Assembly: GCA_034044135.1 (NCBI GenBank)
Contig: CP139021.1
Coordinates: forward strand, 2,619,635 to 2,683,634
Reading direction: 5' to 3'
Length of the DNA stretch: 64,000 nucleotides
DNA from: Flammeovirgaceae bacterium SG7u.111
GTDB lineage: Bacteria; Bacteroidota; Bacteroidia; Cytophagales; Flammeovirgaceae
Under the pieces are notes generated by a model, which had not been told where the DNA came from, did no database searches, and worked only from the letters and a program-made list of their open reading frames with translations. Shown here in pieces: positions 49,580 through 56,047 of the stretch (position 1 is the stretch's first letter; each line of letters starts with the position of its first letter). The position numbers and the translations under genes are program-made.

Positions 49580-50437
49580 ATGACCGAACTTATAGAATCC
49601 TTTTTTACAGATGCGTTCTATTCCGTCTTTGGACAGATCATTTTGCTGATAGTACTGGTCTTGTTAATCAATAAAATCATCAAGTTTTTCTTGAATAGGT
49701 TTATTGATAAGATGGCGAATACCAGTAGCAAGACTAAGATGAAGTTTGTAGGGAATACGGTAGATTTCCTTACATTTTCTGTCTTGATCATTGGGGTGAT
49801 TTATTCTATTCCCAGCTTGCGATCCTTGGCAGTAGGCTTATTTGCTGGAGCCAGTATCTTTGCTGCCTTTTTGGGCTTTGCTTCCCAAAAAGCTTTCTCC
49901 GATGTAATCAGCGGCGTGTTTATCATTATTTTTAAACCCTTTAGGGTAGATGACATCGTGAAGATTAACGGTGAGATAGGGGCAGTGGAAGACATCACCC
50001 TGCGCCATACGGTAATAAAAGGACTGGAAAACAAACGGCATATTTACCCGAACTCATGGATCACCTCCGAGCCCATTATCAACTGGACTATTGTAGACCC
50101 TCGGGTAAACAAGTTTATGTTTATTAGCATCAGTTACGATTCGGACATTGCCACGGCTGAGCGGATAATCATAGAAGAAGTAATGAAGCATCCGAGTTTG
50201 CTGGACTTCAGGAACAAGCAAGAGAAAGCCGAGGGAGTTCCTTTGGTGAAGGTGGAAGTCTTGAGCTTCGATAATTTTGTGATCAACTTTCGTGTACCCC
50301 TGTGGGCGAAAGATTTGCCAGATGGGATGGGGATGATGTTTGATGTGCAGCGCGCCATCCAAGAGCGGTTCAAAGAGGAAAGCAGCGTGGAACTCGCCAA
50401 GCCTTCACAAAAAGTCTACCTTACGGAAGATAAGTAA
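49580..50437 (+). CDS. Small-conductance mechanosensitive channel (MscS family)
   Basis: 285 residues, E. coli MscS size. Three N-terminal membrane helices; the pore helix TM3 carries the Ala/Gly-rich packing pattern (LAVGLFAGASIFAAFLGFAS), followed by the beta domain with FKPFRVDDIVKINGEIGAVE and the motif YPNSWITSEPIINWT. The C-terminal alpha/beta domain is present. It releases solutes during hypo-osmotic shock. Direct repeats lie on both sides of the gene. Confidence 0.93.
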   Translation: MTELIESFFTDAFYSVFGQIILLIVLVLLINKIIKFFLNRFIDKMANTSSKTKMKFVGNTVDFLTFSVLIIGVIYSIPSLRSLAVGLFAGASIFAAFLGFASQKAFSDVISGVFIIIFKPFRVDDIVKINGEIGAVEDITLRHTVIKGLENKRHIYPNSWITSEPIINWTIVDPRVNKFMFISISYDSDIATAERIIIEEVMKHPSLLDFRNKQEKAEGVPLVKVEVLSFDNFVINFRVPLWAKDLPDGMGMMFDVQRAIQERFKEESSVELAKPSQKVYLTEDK

Positions 50438-50481
50438 GTGGTTGATTGATACAGTTGGCTGAACAGACCCTTCACCCCAGA

Positions 50482-50660
50482 AACATCACTAAAAATCAGT
50501 GGTGAATCAAGGCTTTTTGCCAGTTACCAACGACATATTTCTCGGGATATAGGATTTATCGATGGGGAAATATGAAAAATCAGTGGTTCCCAAAGACTTA
50601 TTTCCCGGGAGATATGACTTATCAATGGGGAAATAAGACTTATCAAAGGTAAACAAACAC
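50482..50660 (+). repeat. 58-bp direct repeat (right copy) continuing into a degenerate tandem array
   Basis: 50482-50539 matches 48761-48818. After it, short units such as GACTTATCAATGGGGAAATA recur three times with variation, up to about 50660. An antisense frame across this array translates into imperfect FPIDKSY repeats, judged not to be a gene. Confidence 0.65.
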
Positions 50661-50911
50661 TTGTTTTCAATAATTAGCCTCTTTTTTAAGGTGATTTTCT
50701 TTATTTCTGAAGCGTATAGCCAATAATTTGCCAAGTTGGGTGTCTCTTTCTACCTTTTAGTAGATTTGCTTTCTCACAAATAATCTTTATACTTGTCACA
50801 TCAAACAGAAATGCTTGAACAAAAACAAATACAACCTATTAGTTTATAAATCACTGGTAATCACACAGGTTTTGTTTTTTAGATAGCACTAGTGCTTAAC
50901 AGATACTAAAA

Positions 50912-50995
50912 ATGAATCAATTTTCCTTTATGTGCTGCCCATCATCTGCTGCTTGCAACATTACTTGTTGTATGCGCTGCTGTTGTGGTAGGTAA
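50912..50995 (+). CDS. Cysteine-rich mini-ORF (27 aa), possible leader peptide
   Basis: ATG at 50912, stop TAA at 50993-50995. Eight of 27 residues are Cys, including pairs at 8-9 and 19-20 and a triplet at 23-25, and it ends in CCMRCCCGR. A strong intrinsic terminator begins 41 bases after the stop, so the transcript is short. The layout resembles cysteine-rich leader peptides whose translation adjusts downstream expression; the next gene is korA, 328 bases away. Alternatively it is a free metal-binding peptide. Translation is unproven. Confidence 0.45.
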   Translation: MNQFSFMCCPSSAACNITCCMRCCCGR

Positions 50996-51035
50996 AAGGA
51001 AATTTAAGATAATAACTCGGCGCAATGCTGAAATC

Positions 51036-51067
51036 AAAGCCTTTTCTACCTCAGAAAAGGCTTTTTT
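51036..51067 (+). terminator. Intrinsic terminator after the cysteine-rich mini-ORF
   Basis: AAAGCCTTTTCT (51036-51047) pairs exactly with 51053-51064, 5-base loop, followed by further T. It is strong and sits within the region upstream of korA, so it could be an attenuator. Confidence 0.85.
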
Positions 51068-51322
51068 GTTTTCTTTCTGTTCCACTCCAAACCCCTTTTT
51101 TCCATGTTCCATTATTGTTGTTGTAAGTAAACCTTTGCTCTAGAAGCAAACCTGTGAAGAACTAGGAGTTCTTCCAAAGCTAGAAGCTATGAATGTTGTT
51201 TGGTTTTTCGTAAATTGAAAAGCAACAACACATGCTTCTGAACCAATTCATTTCACAGCAACTCCTGCGAGAAATCTGCCAGGGGATGTTGGACGTATTC
51301 ACCTAAAAATCTAAAACCTAAT

Positions 51323-53191
51323 ATGACCAATTCAACCGAGACCAAGAAAGAAGTTGTGATCTTGTTTGCCGGAGATTCTGGCGATGGGATTCAGCTCACC
51401 GGAGGGCAATTCAGCGAAACCACTGGGCTATATGGCAACGACATTAGCACCTTCCCAAGTTTCCCCGCCGAAATCCGAGCACCTCGGGGCACGCTAGCGG
51501 GCGTATCTGGCTTTCAGCTAAAGTTTGGAAGTGTGGAGATTTTCACCCCAGGCGATAAATATGACGTGTTGGTAGCGATGAACGCCGCTGCTCTCAAAGT
51601 CAATTTGGAAAACCTGAAAACAGGCGGGCTTATCATAGCCAACACCGACGGCTTCGACAAAAAGAACCTCACCTTGGCAAAGTATGTGGATGGGGAAAAT
51701 CCCTTGGAAAACCATTCGCTCGATCAATACACGGTGCATAAAATAGACGTGACCAAGCTGACCCGCAATGCACTGAAAGGTTCGGGCTTGGGCATAAAAG
51801 AGACCGACCGAAGTAAAAATATGTTTGTGTTGGGCTACATCTATTGGATGTATAACAGAGCATTGGACAATACCATCGCTTTCATTAACGAGAAGTTCAA
51901 AAAGAATGAACAGCTGCGAGATGCGAATATAAAAGTACTGAAAACGGGCTATCATTTTGGAGATACGAGCGAGGCGTTTACCTCCCGCTTCCAAGTAGAG
52001 CCGGCTCCTATGCCCAAAGGGGTTTATCGGAACATAAAAGGAAATGAGGCGACTGCTATCGGGTTGATAGCTGGGGCAAAGAAAGCAGGGCTAAACCTGT
52101 TTTATGGAAGTTATCCCATCACCCCGGCTTCCGATGTGCTACATTTTCTTTCCAAGTACAAAAACTTCCATGTGAAGACCTTTCAAGCCGAAGACGAAAT
52201 AGCAGCTATCTGCTCAGCCATTGGTGCATCGTACGGAGGCGCATTGGGCGTAACGGCTTCTTCTGGACCGGGAATAGCTCTCAAAGGGGAAGCCATTGGT
52301 CTGGCGACTATCTTGGAACTGCCTTTGGTGATCTGCAATGTGCAGCGAGGCGGCCCTTCTACGGGCTTGCCTACCAAAACTGAGCAGGCAGATTTGTTCC
52401 AAGCCGTTTACGGAAGAAATGGGGAAGCGCCTATTCCTGTATTGGCAGCCTCGTCTCCTTCCGATTGCTTCGAGGTAGCTTTTGAGGCTTGCCGAATTGC
52501 GGTAGAGCACATGACCCCCGTTTTCATCCTTACCGATGGGTACATTGCCAACGGGGCTGAGCCTTGGAGGTTCCCAACTTCTAAGGACTTGAAAGCCATT
52601 GATCCAAAAATGGTAACAGATAAGAGCAAAGATGCTGAGGGAAAATACTTGCCTTATAAGCGGGACGAAAAACTGGTGAGAGAATGGGCTATTCCGGGCA
52701 TGAAAGGCTTTGAACACAGGATTGGGGGCTTGGAAAAAGAGCACGAAACGGGAAATGTTTCCTACGATCCTGCCAATCACGAGTTCATGATCAAACTTCG
52801 GGCAGAGAAGGTGAAAAAGATGGCGGAATATTTCCCCGAACAGCAAATAGCCATTGGCGAAAGCCAAGGAGATGTATTGGTGCTGGGCTGGGGTTCTACC
52901 TTCGGGGCTATCCAAACGGCAGTGCGGGAGTTGCGGATGGAAGGCTATTCCGTTTCCCATGCCCACTTGCGGCACGTGTTCCCTTTCCCCAAAAACTTAG
53001 GCAACATCTTGTCCCGCTTCAAAAAAGTGATTATCCCAGAAATGAACTTGGGGCAGCTCCGCCAGATGATCCGTGGGGAGTATTTAGTAGATGCGAAAGG
53101 GGTGCAAAAAGTAAAGGGCTTGCCTTTCACCGTAGATGAGATCAAAGATGCCGTGAAGGCGGAAAGCTCGCTGGAAGCAGAGGTGCATTAA
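51323..53191 (+). CDS. korA: 2-oxoacid:ferredoxin oxidoreductase, fused gamma-alpha subunit
   Basis: 622 residues. The N-terminal ~190 residues are the gamma domain (FAGDSGDGIQLTGGQFSETT, FPAEIRAPRGTLAGVSGFQL). From ~215 the alpha (pyrimidine-binding) domain follows: GNEATAIGLIAGAKKAGLNL, GSYPITPASDVLHFLSKY, TASSGPGIALKGEAIGLA, QRGGPSTGLPTKTEQADL. This fused form is typical of 2-oxoglutarate or related 2-oxoacid:ferredoxin oxidoreductases, which decarboxylate the oxoacid to acyl-CoA and reduce ferredoxin. Partner beta subunit lies 154 bases downstream. Confidence 0.93.
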   Translation: MTNSTETKKEVVILFAGDSGDGIQLTGGQFSETTGLYGNDISTFPSFPAEIRAPRGTLAGVSGFQLKFGSVEIFTPGDKYDVLVAMNAAALKVNLENLKTGGLIIANTDGFDKKNLTLAKYVDGENPLENHSLDQYTVHKIDVTKLTRNALKGSGLGIKETDRSKNMFVLGYIYWMYNRALDNTIAFINEKFKKNEQLRDANIKVLKTGYHFGDTSEAFTSRFQVEPAPMPKGVYRNIKGNEATAIGLIAGAKKAGLNLFYGSYPITPASDVLHFLSKYKNFHVKTFQAEDEIAAICSAIGASYGGALGVTASSGPGIALKGEAIGLATILELPLVICNVQRGGPSTGLPTKTEQADLFQAVYGRNGEAPIPVLAASSPSDCFEVAFEACRIAVEHMTPVFILTDGYIANGAEPWRFPTSKDLKAIDPKMVTDKSKDAEGKYLPYKRDEKLVREWAIPGMKGFEHRIGGLEKEHETGNVSYDPANHEFMIKLRAEKVKKMAEYFPEQQIAIGESQGDVLVLGWGSTFGAIQTAVRELRMEGYSVSHAHLRHVFPFPKNLGNILSRFKKVIIPEMNLGQLRQMIRGEYLVDAKGVQKVKGLPFTVDEIKDAVKAESSLEAEVH

Positions 53192-53345: not shown

Positions 53346-54374
53346 ATGACACAAAATATAGATCATAAATTAACACCGAAAGACTTTGCCACCGACCAAG
53401 ACATCCGTTGGTGCCCCGGTTGCGGCGATTATTCTATCTTGAAGCAAGTGCAGACCATTATGCCCGAAATTGGTGTGCCCAAAGAAGACATCGTGTTTAT
53501 CTCGGGGATTGGCTGTTCTTCCCGCTTTCCCTATTACATGAACACCTACGGGGTGCATAGCATCCACGGGCGTGCGCCTGCCATTGCCAGTGGGCTAAAA
53601 GCCGTGAACCCTGACCTGAGCGTCTGGGTGATTACTGGCGACGGGGACTCGCTTTCCATTGGGGGAAACCACCTTATCCATATGCTGAGGAGGAACTTTG
53701 ATATGAATGTCCTGCTCTTCAACAACGAGATTTATGGGCTTACCAAAGGGCAATACTCTCCAACGTCGCCCGAAGGGAGCATTTCAAAATCTACGCCAAT
53801 GGGCTCGGTAGACCATCCGTTCAATCCTTTGGCACTTTGCATGGGAGCGGAGGGGACATTTTTGGCAAGAACGCTAGACAGAGACCCGAAACATATGCGG
53901 GCAGTGCTTTCCGAAGCCCATCTGCACAAGGGGACTTCTATGGTGGAGATTTACCAGAACTGTAATGTCTTCAACGATGGAGCATTTTTCCCTTTTACAG
54001 AGAAAGACTCGAAGCCAGATAATGTGATTTTCTTGGAACAAGGAGAGCCGCTGGTGTTTGGCAGTGAGCGTAACAGGGGGATCAAGCTCGATGGCTTCAA
54101 GCCCGTAGTGGTCAATTTGGACGAAGGAGTTTCCAAGGACGAACTTTGGGTGCATGACAAAACGGACAAGGTCAAAGCATCTATGCTCACCCAATTGCTA
54201 GACGACCCAAGAGAGGAGGGGGCATTGCCCAGGGCTTTTGGGGTGATCTATGCCGAAGAGCGCTTCAATTATGAAGATGTGTTCAATCACCAAATAGACA
54301 AGGCAGTGGAAACCAACGGTGAAGGCGACCTCGATGCCCTGCTGGCAGGGCCAAGCATTTGGGAGATTGCTTGA
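53346..54374 (+). CDS. korB: 2-oxoacid:ferredoxin oxidoreductase beta subunit
   Basis: 342 residues from ATG 53346; an in-frame upstream ATG at 53301 lies inside the intergenic repeat and adds residues not seen in the family. IRWCPGCGDYSIL and GIGCSSRFPYYM hold Cys ligands of the Fe-S cluster; WVITGDGDSLSIGGNH is the thiamine-diphosphate motif (GDG...N, with NNEIYGLTKGQYSPTSPEG completing it). Forms the KorAB complex with the upstream gene. Confidence 0.94.
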   Translation: MTQNIDHKLTPKDFATDQDIRWCPGCGDYSILKQVQTIMPEIGVPKEDIVFISGIGCSSRFPYYMNTYGVHSIHGRAPAIASGLKAVNPDLSVWVITGDGDSLSIGGNHLIHMLRRNFDMNVLLFNNEIYGLTKGQYSPTSPEGSISKSTPMGSVDHPFNPLALCMGAEGTFLARTLDRDPKHMRAVLSEAHLHKGTSMVEIYQNCNVFNDGAFFPFTEKDSKPDNVIFLEQGEPLVFGSERNRGIKLDGFKPVVVNLDEGVSKDELWVHDKTDKVKASMLTQLLDDPREEGALPRAFGVIYAEERFNYEDVFNHQIDKAVETNGEGDLDALLAGPSIWEIA

Positions 54375-54849: not shown

Positions 54850-55177
54850 GTGAACAAAAAAAAGACAATAGATAGAATTGCTGAATTAATTGCAAGATTT
54901 AGGGCTGAAGTAGAAACTTTAAATAGCCAAAACTTATACGACATAAATATTCACGCAGAAAATGTAATTATTCCGATTTTAAATTACGTTTATGGGTTAA
55001 GCTTGAAAAACGCCAATCTTGAAGAAAAAAATTATTCAGCAATAGATTTAATTGATTACGAGAATCGGGTTGCTATACAAGTAACTTCGACAGTAGGTTC
55101 AGAAAAAATAAAGCACACTCTTGAACAATATAAGAAGCATAAAGAGCGAGATGAGTTTGATTCTTTACTAGTTTACA

Positions 55178-55180
55178 TAA
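55178..55180 (+). repeat. Target-site duplication (TAA), left
   Basis: TAA immediately before the left end of the IS5-type element, repeated at 56048-56050. Confidence 0.8.
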
Positions 55181-56047
55181 GAGCATGTTTAAATTTTGAA
55201 AAGAGCCGGGCAGGCTAAAACTTTGTAGTGACGAAACAACAAAGTTTATGGAAACAGGATATACCCGCTTGACCTCCCGGCAATGGCAATATATAAAAGA
55301 ATATCTTCCCGTGGAAAGGAAACGCAAATATGACCTCAGGGACGTGGTGGACTCGATCTTGTACTGCATGCGCAGCGGACAGCAGTGGCGCAGCCTCTCG
55401 GGCGAGGGACGCCCTCCTTGGAATGTGGTATACTATTATTTCCGCAAGTGGCAGGGGGACAACACGCTTTTTCGGCTGAACGCGGCACTCAACCAACTAG
55501 AGCGCAAGAGGAAGGGCAAGAAGGCGACCCCGAGCATGCTTTCCATTGATAGCCAGTCGGTAAAGTGCGCGCCTTTTATCGGGCAGGACACGGGGCTGGA
55601 CGGCAACAAGAAGGTGAACGGGAGAAAAAGGCACGTCATCACCGATACGCTCGGGCTGGTATGGGGAGTGGTCGCCACTGGCGCCAACGAGCATGACGGC
55701 ACGATAGGGCAACGGGTGGTGGAGCCCCTCTTGGGCTACCTGCACAGGATGGAAAAGATCCTGGCAGACCAGGCCTATAAAAAGAAGTTCACCGGATGGG
55801 TAGAGGACAACATAAGGGGCGTAGAGGTCGAGATATCCTCTTGTCCCCCAACCCCCAGGGGCTTTGTGCCCATCAAGTGGAGATGGGTCACCGAGAGGAC
55901 ATTCGGCACGTTCAATTTCTTCCGGAGGCTGTCCAAAGACTATGAAAAAACTACCAAAAGCCAAGAAGCTTGGGTTTTATGGCAAAACTGCCAAATAATA
56001 CTTAATAGGATCAAAAAAATGCCTATTTAAAATTTTTAAACATGATC
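55181..56047 (+). mobile_element. IS5-family insertion sequence (867 bp)
   Basis: The ends are inverted repeats: GAGCATGTTTAAA at the left and, reverse-complemented, GATCATGTTTAAA at the right. A 3-bp TAA duplication (TNA type) flanks it, as in the IS1031/IS5 groups. One transposase gene fills the element. The GC content is clearly higher than in the disrupted host gene, so it came from elsewhere. Confidence 0.9.
55248..56030 (+). CDS. IS5-family transposase
   Basis: 260 residues, a single-frame DDE transposase. The N-terminal DUF4096-like part (LTSRQWQYIKEYLPVERKRKYDLRD...GQQWRSL, split) is followed by the DDE core: SIDSQSVKCAPF (first Asp), GRKRHVITDTLGL, ILADQAYKKKF (second Asp) and WVTERTFGTFNFFRRLSKDYE (Glu within the R/ERTF motif). 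The frame is intact, so the element may still be mobile. An overlapping in-frame start is not evident upstream. Confidence 0.92.
   Translation: METGYTRLTSRQWQYIKEYLPVERKRKYDLRDVVDSILYCMRSGQQWRSLSGEGRPPWNVVYYYFRKWQGDNTLFRLNAALNQLERKRKGKKATPSMLSIDSQSVKCAPFIGQDTGLDGNKKVNGRKRHVITDTLGLVWGVVATGANEHDGTIGQRVVEPLLGYLHRMEKILADQAYKKKFTGWVEDNIRGVEVEISSCPPTPRGFVPIKWRWVTERTFGTFNFFRRLSKDYEKTTKSQEAWVLWQNCQIILNRIKKMPI

Follow-up and report, generated by a model that had tools for sequence, protein, structure and literature searches.

Poly-cysteine mini-ORFs and an intrinsic terminator ahead of korAB: a probable cysteine-reading attenuator in a Flammeovirgaceae bacterium, with related leaders at sulfur genes

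Attenuators of the trp and his type combine regulatory codons, RNA segments that pair as 1:2, 2:3 and 3:4, and a terminator placed before the first gene. For cysteine, Canestrari et al. are said to have described, in 2020, poly-Cys leader ORFs in mycobacterial cys operons. Poly-Cys leaders have also been predicted for actinobacterial cys operons, with no conserved terminators (PMC1262725), and a further article describes translation attenuation for cysteine genes of M. smegmatis (PMC13236596). In the Rhodobacterales, the uORFC-8-2 motif ahead of cysS has two Cys codons and a terminator, and ribosome-mediated attenuation is proposed for it (PMC8632094). Two other papers mention, in general terms, leader-peptide attenuation of amino-acid operons in flavobacteria (PMC9723704) and report short ORFs reminiscent of leader peptides in B. 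thetaiotaomicron (PMC7366714). Among the titles and abstract openings that our literature search covered, with few subscription journals included, none describes a poly-Cys leader from Bacteroidota, an arrangement of Cys attenuators in tandem, or korAB controlled in this way.

The korAB leader described here lies in a stretch of 64,000 nucleotides of the genome of Flammeovirgaceae bacterium SG7u.111, referred to below as the window. Like the mycobacterial cys leaders, which are cysteine-responsive and stand upstream of sulfur-assimilation genes, it has a short ORF in which consecutive Cys codons lie close to the stop; unlike those leaders of Actinobacteria, which are described as free of conserved terminator hairpins, it has a terminator and a predicted antiterminator, two ORFs, and KorAB as its target. 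It shares with uORFC-8-2 the tandem Cys codons in a uORF and the intrinsic terminator, whereas that alphaproteobacterial motif, as described, has cysteinyl-tRNA synthetase as its target, two Cys codons and apparently one uORF. The regulatory codons, the 1:2, 2:3 and 3:4 segments and the terminator follow the trp and his layout, from which the korA leader differs in its putative cysteine signal, in a second ORF in series, and in a protector hairpin that is predicted in the window but not in a close relative, G003. The metY leaders with a SAM (S-box) riboswitch (RF00162) belong to the same sulfur regulon; the korA leader, in contrast, has no riboswitch match. Poly-Cys attenuators of mycobacteria and the cysS proposal are thus already known, and what appears to be new are the tandem forms of Bacteroidota and the korAB target. 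The features of the locus are collected in Table 1, and on the evidence set out below it is probable that the first ORF (ORF1) and its terminator form a ribosome-mediated attenuator that reads cysteine through charged tRNA-Cys, and that korAB belongs to a cysteine regulon.

Table 1. Features of the korAB leader and genes in the window
Feature	Positions	Strand	Remarks
Promoter-like site TTTG-N19-TATACTTG	50765-50796	+	Weak; 65 equally good + strand sites in the 64 kb window
ORF1, putative leader peptide MNQFSFMCCPSSAACNITCCMRCCCGR	50912-50995	+	ATG frame of 27 codons, 8 of them Cys
Segment 1, 5' arm of predicted protector hairpin (TTTCCTTT)	50922-50929	+	Pairs with 50995-51002 by fold prediction
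Segment 2, 5' arm of predicted antiterminator (GGTAG + AAAAGG)	50987-50999	+	Overlaps last ORF1 codons and stop; from folding and the model
Intrinsic terminator hairpin (segments 3:4)	51036-51064	+	12 pairs, followed by a T-run
Segment 3, CCTTTTCTACC	51040-51050	+	Predicted antiterminator 3' arm; terminator 5' arm and loop
ORF2, MFHYCCCK	51104-51130	+	Second Cys mini-ORF; absent from the list in the preliminary description
Long imperfect hairpin between ORF2 and korA	51181-51240	+	Fold prediction
korA, 2-oxoacid:acceptor oxidoreductase subunit alpha, N-terminal POR domain fused	51323-53191	+	TIGR03710; POR, POR_N, PFOR_II
korB, 2-oxoacid:acceptor oxidoreductase subunit beta	53346-54374	+	TIGR02177 (below cut-off), TPP_enzyme_C

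The preliminary description of this DNA had pointed to a 27-residue, eight-Cys ORF upstream of korAB with a terminator of its own, and both elements are confirmed. ORF1 has the character of an amino-acid leader, a short ORF with regulatory codons of a single amino acid, its eight Cys codons being grouped in the order CC, C, CC and CCC; judged by sequence, an intrinsic terminator lies between it and korA, as it also does at the equivalent place in two close relatives, G003 and G009. The stem of this terminator is a strong one, since perfect stems of at least 10 pairs with at least 4 G-C pairs and T at six of eight following positions occur on the + strand at just five places (seven rows) in the 64 kb window; the number of terminator-like sites in 1 kb is near that of shuffled sequences and by itself not significant (1 against 0.7, sd 0.9). 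The region 50900-51075 has a predicted folding energy of -51.2 kcal/mol; shuffled versions give -34.3 (sd 3.67), which corresponds to z = -4.6. The site listed upstream of ORF1 is called promoter-like on what we take to be the Bacteroidota-type promoter consensus; TTTG-N18/19-TAnnnTTG occurs 5' of ORF1 in all three korA leaders, sites of this kind being common, and a scan of the leader region for E. coli-type promoters gave no + strand match.

Rfam returned eight rows for 50400-51400, none reaching the gathering score of its own family, and at E up to 5 the SAM riboswitch (RF00162) was not among the matches to that interval. The 176-base leader, compared with the whole of its own genome, matched itself alone, five other rows lying at E 0.1-0.63. 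Two candidates were tried and rejected: protein homologues of ORF1, for which 58 genomes of relatives (its own included) gave the self-match and six weak rows (E 0.32-0.82) that looked like chance in their context, and the CMRCCCG tail as a conserved motif. The DNA pattern for this tail matched the window alone in 395 genomes of the phylum, and the exact tail is therefore not a conserved motif.

KorA scores 659.6 bits against TIGR03710, above the cut-off of 482.75, and KorB, which is presumably an Fe-S cluster protein, scores 241.8 bits against TIGR02177, below the cut-off of 261.9. The pair contains no gene for cysteine synthesis, nor do we know of any direct role of korAB in that pathway. 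An MscS-like channel gene lies upstream of the leader; 3' of korB there is a small ORF with a SMEK_N domain (54850-55218) and then an IS4/5-type transposase (55248-56030), the insertion of which may have cut the SMEK gene short. The same genome has a second KorA, 53% identical (G000:C1:5645034-5646845, L019), beside a korB recognized by eye, and this second korA is without a poly-Cys leader.

Close korA relatives were found in two of 18 family genomes, namely G003 (91% identity) and G009 (92% over 302 residues, the contig ending at residue 302). ORF1, terminator and ORF2 all occur in both at places that match the window, the ORF1 counterparts ahead of korA being MMNTNTPYQSRPNAHNSCCCCLSSCCCG (G003) and MMNTHTPYQSRPNAHNSCCYCLSSCCCG (G009), and the ORF2 counterparts, in the interval between terminator and korA, MLLSCCCCK and MLLSCCCCI; CCTTTTCTACC, within the terminator's 5' arm and loop, is identical in the three leaders. 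The window ORF1 peptide is unlike the other two except in its Cys clusters and CCCG end. G003 and G009 are near kin of each other and, because of this, are not independent evidence. Beyond them, none of 80 korA loci at 57-71% identity (the best 80 of at least 581) has a poly-Cys ORF up to 1 kb upstream, the search having covered 78,388 bases in all, with less than 1 kb on some contigs; in a narrower comparison 10 of 13 korA loci are without the leader, although one of the ten, L028, shows a GTG frame containing one CC. The preliminary description had named absence of the frame from relatives as a refutation, and this check does not refute it: in the two close relatives a Cys-rich frame with a different peptide stands at the corresponding place, and the more distant korA genes have none. 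Among the loci examined the poly-Cys korA leader is restricted to three genomes, in two genera.

Folding the leader for alternative hairpins, as had also been proposed, yields a predicted antiterminator that overlaps the terminator. When the RNA lacks the 3' arm of the terminator, each of the three korA leaders is predicted to form an antiterminator at its ORF1 stop, made in G003 and G009 by TTGTGGT and AGAAAA with TTTTCTACCACAA. The duplex energies in the three leaders are -13.7, -11.7 and -11.7; 26-nt windows that pair as well number 116/9831, 51/2445 and 20/1381 (1.2, 2.1 and 1.4%), and shuffled leaders that do so 35, 11 and 37 of 1000, which makes the antiterminator pairing only moderately rare. 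A ribosome on the stop codon is predicted to mask the antiterminator's 5' arm, as an attenuator would have it, with moderate statistical support. In nascent window RNA from the ORF1 start onward, the fold favors the protector (segments 1:2) over the antiterminator.

A simple equilibrium model of ribosome position, in which the ribosome covers 11 nt past the first base of the A-site codon, was applied to the window and to G003. In the window the modeled probability of the antiterminator reaches 0.90-0.91 when the A site holds either CC pair (50933-50938 or 50966-50971), is 0.10-0.19 between these pairs (50942-50960), and is 0 both at the ORF1 stop and when there is no ribosome. It is also 0.74-0.91 at neighboring codons (50927-50930, 50939, 50963, 50972 and 50975), and values are low for the lone Cys codon 50954 (0.13) and the last CCC (0.44, 0.36, 0.02); Cys codons are not singled out by the model. 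In G003 the modeled probability is 0.97 on CCCC, 0.95-0.97 at all earlier codons and 0 at the stop, and it is 0.95 with no ribosome, where the window has 0, so that the stop end alone differs in G003 and the protector has no such effect there.

The mechanism that we propose is built on these predicted folds. With cysteine ample, the ribosome would reach the ORF1 stop and cover 50987-50999, the terminator would form, and transcription would halt before korAB. With cysteine short, it would stall on a CC pair, 50987-50999 would pair with 51040-51050, and, with no terminator formed, transcription would read through. If ORF1 were not translated, the protector (50922-50929 with 50995-51002) would form and leave the terminator free. 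ORF2 may be a further cysteine-reading step; a scan found no second terminator 3' of it, ahead of korA.

A census of poly-Cys mini-ORFs was made over the whole 7.7 Mb of the genome by searching for CCC with a stop directly after it or one or two codons further on. It gave 36, 49 and 37 places, respectively, or 122 as listed, some being counted in two patterns, and all 122 were covered by the stretches read (117 on contig C1 and five on C2, in L163 and L304). Most of the 118 site rows, incidental ones and the window included, fall inside open frames of at least 120 aa (107 rows), and 11 are free. The free rows comprise four distinct ATG-started mini-ORFs, two of them ahead of korA and two ahead of sulfhydrylase genes, together with one TTG-started mini-ORF that has no gene listed downstream and rows without an in-frame start codon. 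Both sulfhydrylase leaders lie behind a SAM riboswitch, MKNSIQVESSESVPLNAALRATTYTTCCTCCCCCMQ being ahead of metY and MKKVKNFHPHISNRSLALSANNSTKCCCMCCCC ahead of an O-succinylhomoserine-sulfhydrylase-like gene. The census is complete for this genome, and for G003 and G009 it extends to part of the places.

The association with SAM riboswitches was examined at 30 of 42 family matches, with gene names assigned mostly by eye. A CCC-bearing ORF lies 3' of the riboswitch at five of six metY/PLP-sulfhydrylase loci (the exception being metY of G002) versus none of 24 other SAM loci, which include, by eye, metH, metK and metX; L251, of which the orientation is not determinable, is counted among the 24, four of which contain a frame with one CC and none a frame with CCC. 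The chance that all five would fall among those six of 30 loci is about 4e-5 if relatedness is ignored. Genomes G000 (that of the window), G003, G007 and G009 have a SAM riboswitch followed by a poly-Cys ORF, and from the sequence the two may be sensors in series, one for SAM and one for cysteine. The order riboswitch, poly-Cys ORF, metY is seen at L248 (G000:C1:6653200-6653571), L258, L259 and L254, and at L261 and L370 the riboswitch and poly-Cys ORF precede a sulfhydrylase-Sir run.

Across the order, a poly-Cys ORF, defined as an ATG mini-ORF with CCC, or with CC twice, lies wholly within 550 nt upstream of metY in 36 of the 67 regions examined; the reverse strand gave 0 of 67, shuffles gave 0.15 per 67, and 31 of the 67 regions have none. 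These regions consist of 30 automatic loci and 37 hand-picked for spread, from 122 matched genomes, the query's own included. Other limits give 40 of 67 within 700 nt (three of them about 600 nt away) and 37 ending within 520 nt. The 37 leaders fall in nine families; the members of f11 and f16 examined have none within 520 nt, and many members of f1, f5 and f19 are likewise without. In all 36 leaders the last Cys is 0-2 residues before the stop. The peptides look dissimilar, near kin excepted, and the terminal Cys codons are kept, which fits the codons being read rather than the peptide. An intrinsic terminator is present in two of the 37 leaders, versus 0.7 expected, which permits no general claim; metY leaders, rarely having terminators, must therefore work in another way than the korA leader.

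Poly-Cys leaders also precede genes of sulfite reduction. In the genome of the window, an NIR_SIR reductase gene and two genes that by eye resemble those of siroheme synthesis lie downstream, on the same strand, of the sulfhydrylase gene led by a SAM riboswitch and a poly-Cys ORF; the run in G003 consists of the reductase, a tetrapyrrole methylase, a siroheme-synthesis protein and a PAPS-reductase-domain protein. The poly-Cys-led genes of sulfur metabolism are metY, the O-succinylhomoserine-sulfhydrylase-like gene, NIR_SIR and the PAPS-reductase-domain gene. The G003 reductase leader is made up of MSLSTPFQSRPNAHHSCCMMQVFYGKGVSIRH, a terminator, MNCFNNCCCNCCCCCEIQQLKEGFIRTD and a second terminator (L371:6430-6790), and G009 has an equivalent tandem leader (L415, reverse strand), the first peptide of both containing RPNAHHSCC. 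The antiterminators predicted for these Sir leaders have -12.9 and -13.0 kcal/mol at stage 1, equaled by 28/4566 and 11/550 windows (true partners included), and -17.2 in both at stage 2, equaled by 12/4558 and 12/544. Each stage would consist of a Cys ORF, an antiterminator and a terminator, and we read the Sir leader as two putative cysteine attenuators in a row. NCBIfam scores of both reductases scanned are below cut-offs (the best, for the NirA family, being 250.5 of 523) and leave the electron donor unsettled; no CysJ-like neighbor was noticed by eye in the ORF lists of the window's genome and G003.

The ORF1 peptides of the korA and Sir leaders of G003 and G009 have RPNAHxSCC in common (L016 850-936, L018 880-966, L371, L415), and the DNA pattern RPNAH[H/N/D/Y]SCC has exact matches in these four leaders only among 390 genomes of the order. 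With one mismatch it is matched in G590, by RPNAHQSCC inside an 83-residue stop-to-stop frame, and in G630, by RHNAHNRCC in a frame open over the 100 residues printed. The korA and Sir leaders therefore look paralogous in G003 and G009; RPNAHxSCC may be an arrest peptide or may simply reflect recent duplication.

The preliminary description had raised three readings: attenuation that senses cysteine, sensing of Fe-S or metal state, and a free metal-binding peptide. In the second, the nascent Cys-rich peptide would bind metal or become oxidized, altering stalling and thereby korAB expression, as in proteobacterial Cys-rich leader peptides linked to copper. The CC and CCC clusters are potential metal ligands, KorB is expected to contain an Fe-S cluster, and RPNAHxSCC, a stretch with both His and Cys, is conserved between two leaders in each of G003 and G009, where the peptide itself may matter. 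Set against this, window ORF1 is without RPNAHxSCC, the varying metY peptides keep their terminal Cys codons, as codon reading would have it, and like leaders stand ahead of metY, sulfhydrylase and sulfite reductase genes, that is, in the pathway that makes cysteine and methionine; with nothing found that points to metal or redox sensing, we consider it improbable. That ORF1 is instead a stand-alone gene for a small metal-binding or thiol peptide, with korAB transcribed separately, would agree with ORF1 and its terminator making up a full transcription unit, but the peptides of the window and of its relatives have little in common besides the Cys clusters, there is a second Cys mini-ORF downstream, and at the threshold used for the upstream site the stretch from ORF1 to korA has no promoter-like site in the window or in G009 (G003 has one, within the T-run). 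This reading seems to us very improbable.

A different account would have the Cys ORFs exert translational or Rho-dependent control, the 51036-51064 hairpin being minor and ORF2 the main switch. Mycobacterial cysteine genes are described as being controlled by translation attenuation (PMC13236596), the poly-Cys metY leaders seldom have intrinsic terminators, and a hairpin between ORF2 and korA is predicted in all three genomes, with a sequence in G003 and G009 that differs from that of the window. A terminator with antiterminator complementarity is nonetheless found in both genera that have the korA leader, and two terminators occur in the Sir leader related to it, which makes such control unlikely as the main route. 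Cysteine-sensing, translation-coupled attenuation of transcription is the reading that we prefer, and it is well supported by the Cys clusters that are kept, by a predicted antiterminator in register with the stop, and by the company of sulfur-gene leaders.

If korAB is indeed part of it, the cysteine regulon would comprise korAB together with the sulfite reductase genes, metY and the O-succinylhomoserine-sulfhydrylase-like gene. Reduced ferredoxin is a product of KorAB enzymes, and six electrons are needed to reduce sulfite; provision of reduced ferredoxin for that step is plausibly the reason for the presence of KorAB among these genes. More tentatively, it is quite possible that in Bacteroidota of this order poly-Cys leaders serve as a cysteine switch for sulfur genes, in some lineages in two stages or behind SAM riboswitches, that KorAB was recruited to it in two genera, so that the supply of reduced ferredoxin tracks cysteine demand, and that RPNAHxSCC makes ORF1 of G003 and G009 an arrest peptide with a sequence requirement of its own. 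Of the metY genes examined, roughly half are preceded by a poly-Cys leader, and tandem forms stand ahead of sulfite reductase and korAB. If the preferred reading is true, Bacteroidota of this order would have a protein-free cysteine sensor that is recognizable from sequence, and a ferredoxin-reducing enzyme of central carbon metabolism would be tied to sulfur demand, a connection unforeseen from annotation alone.
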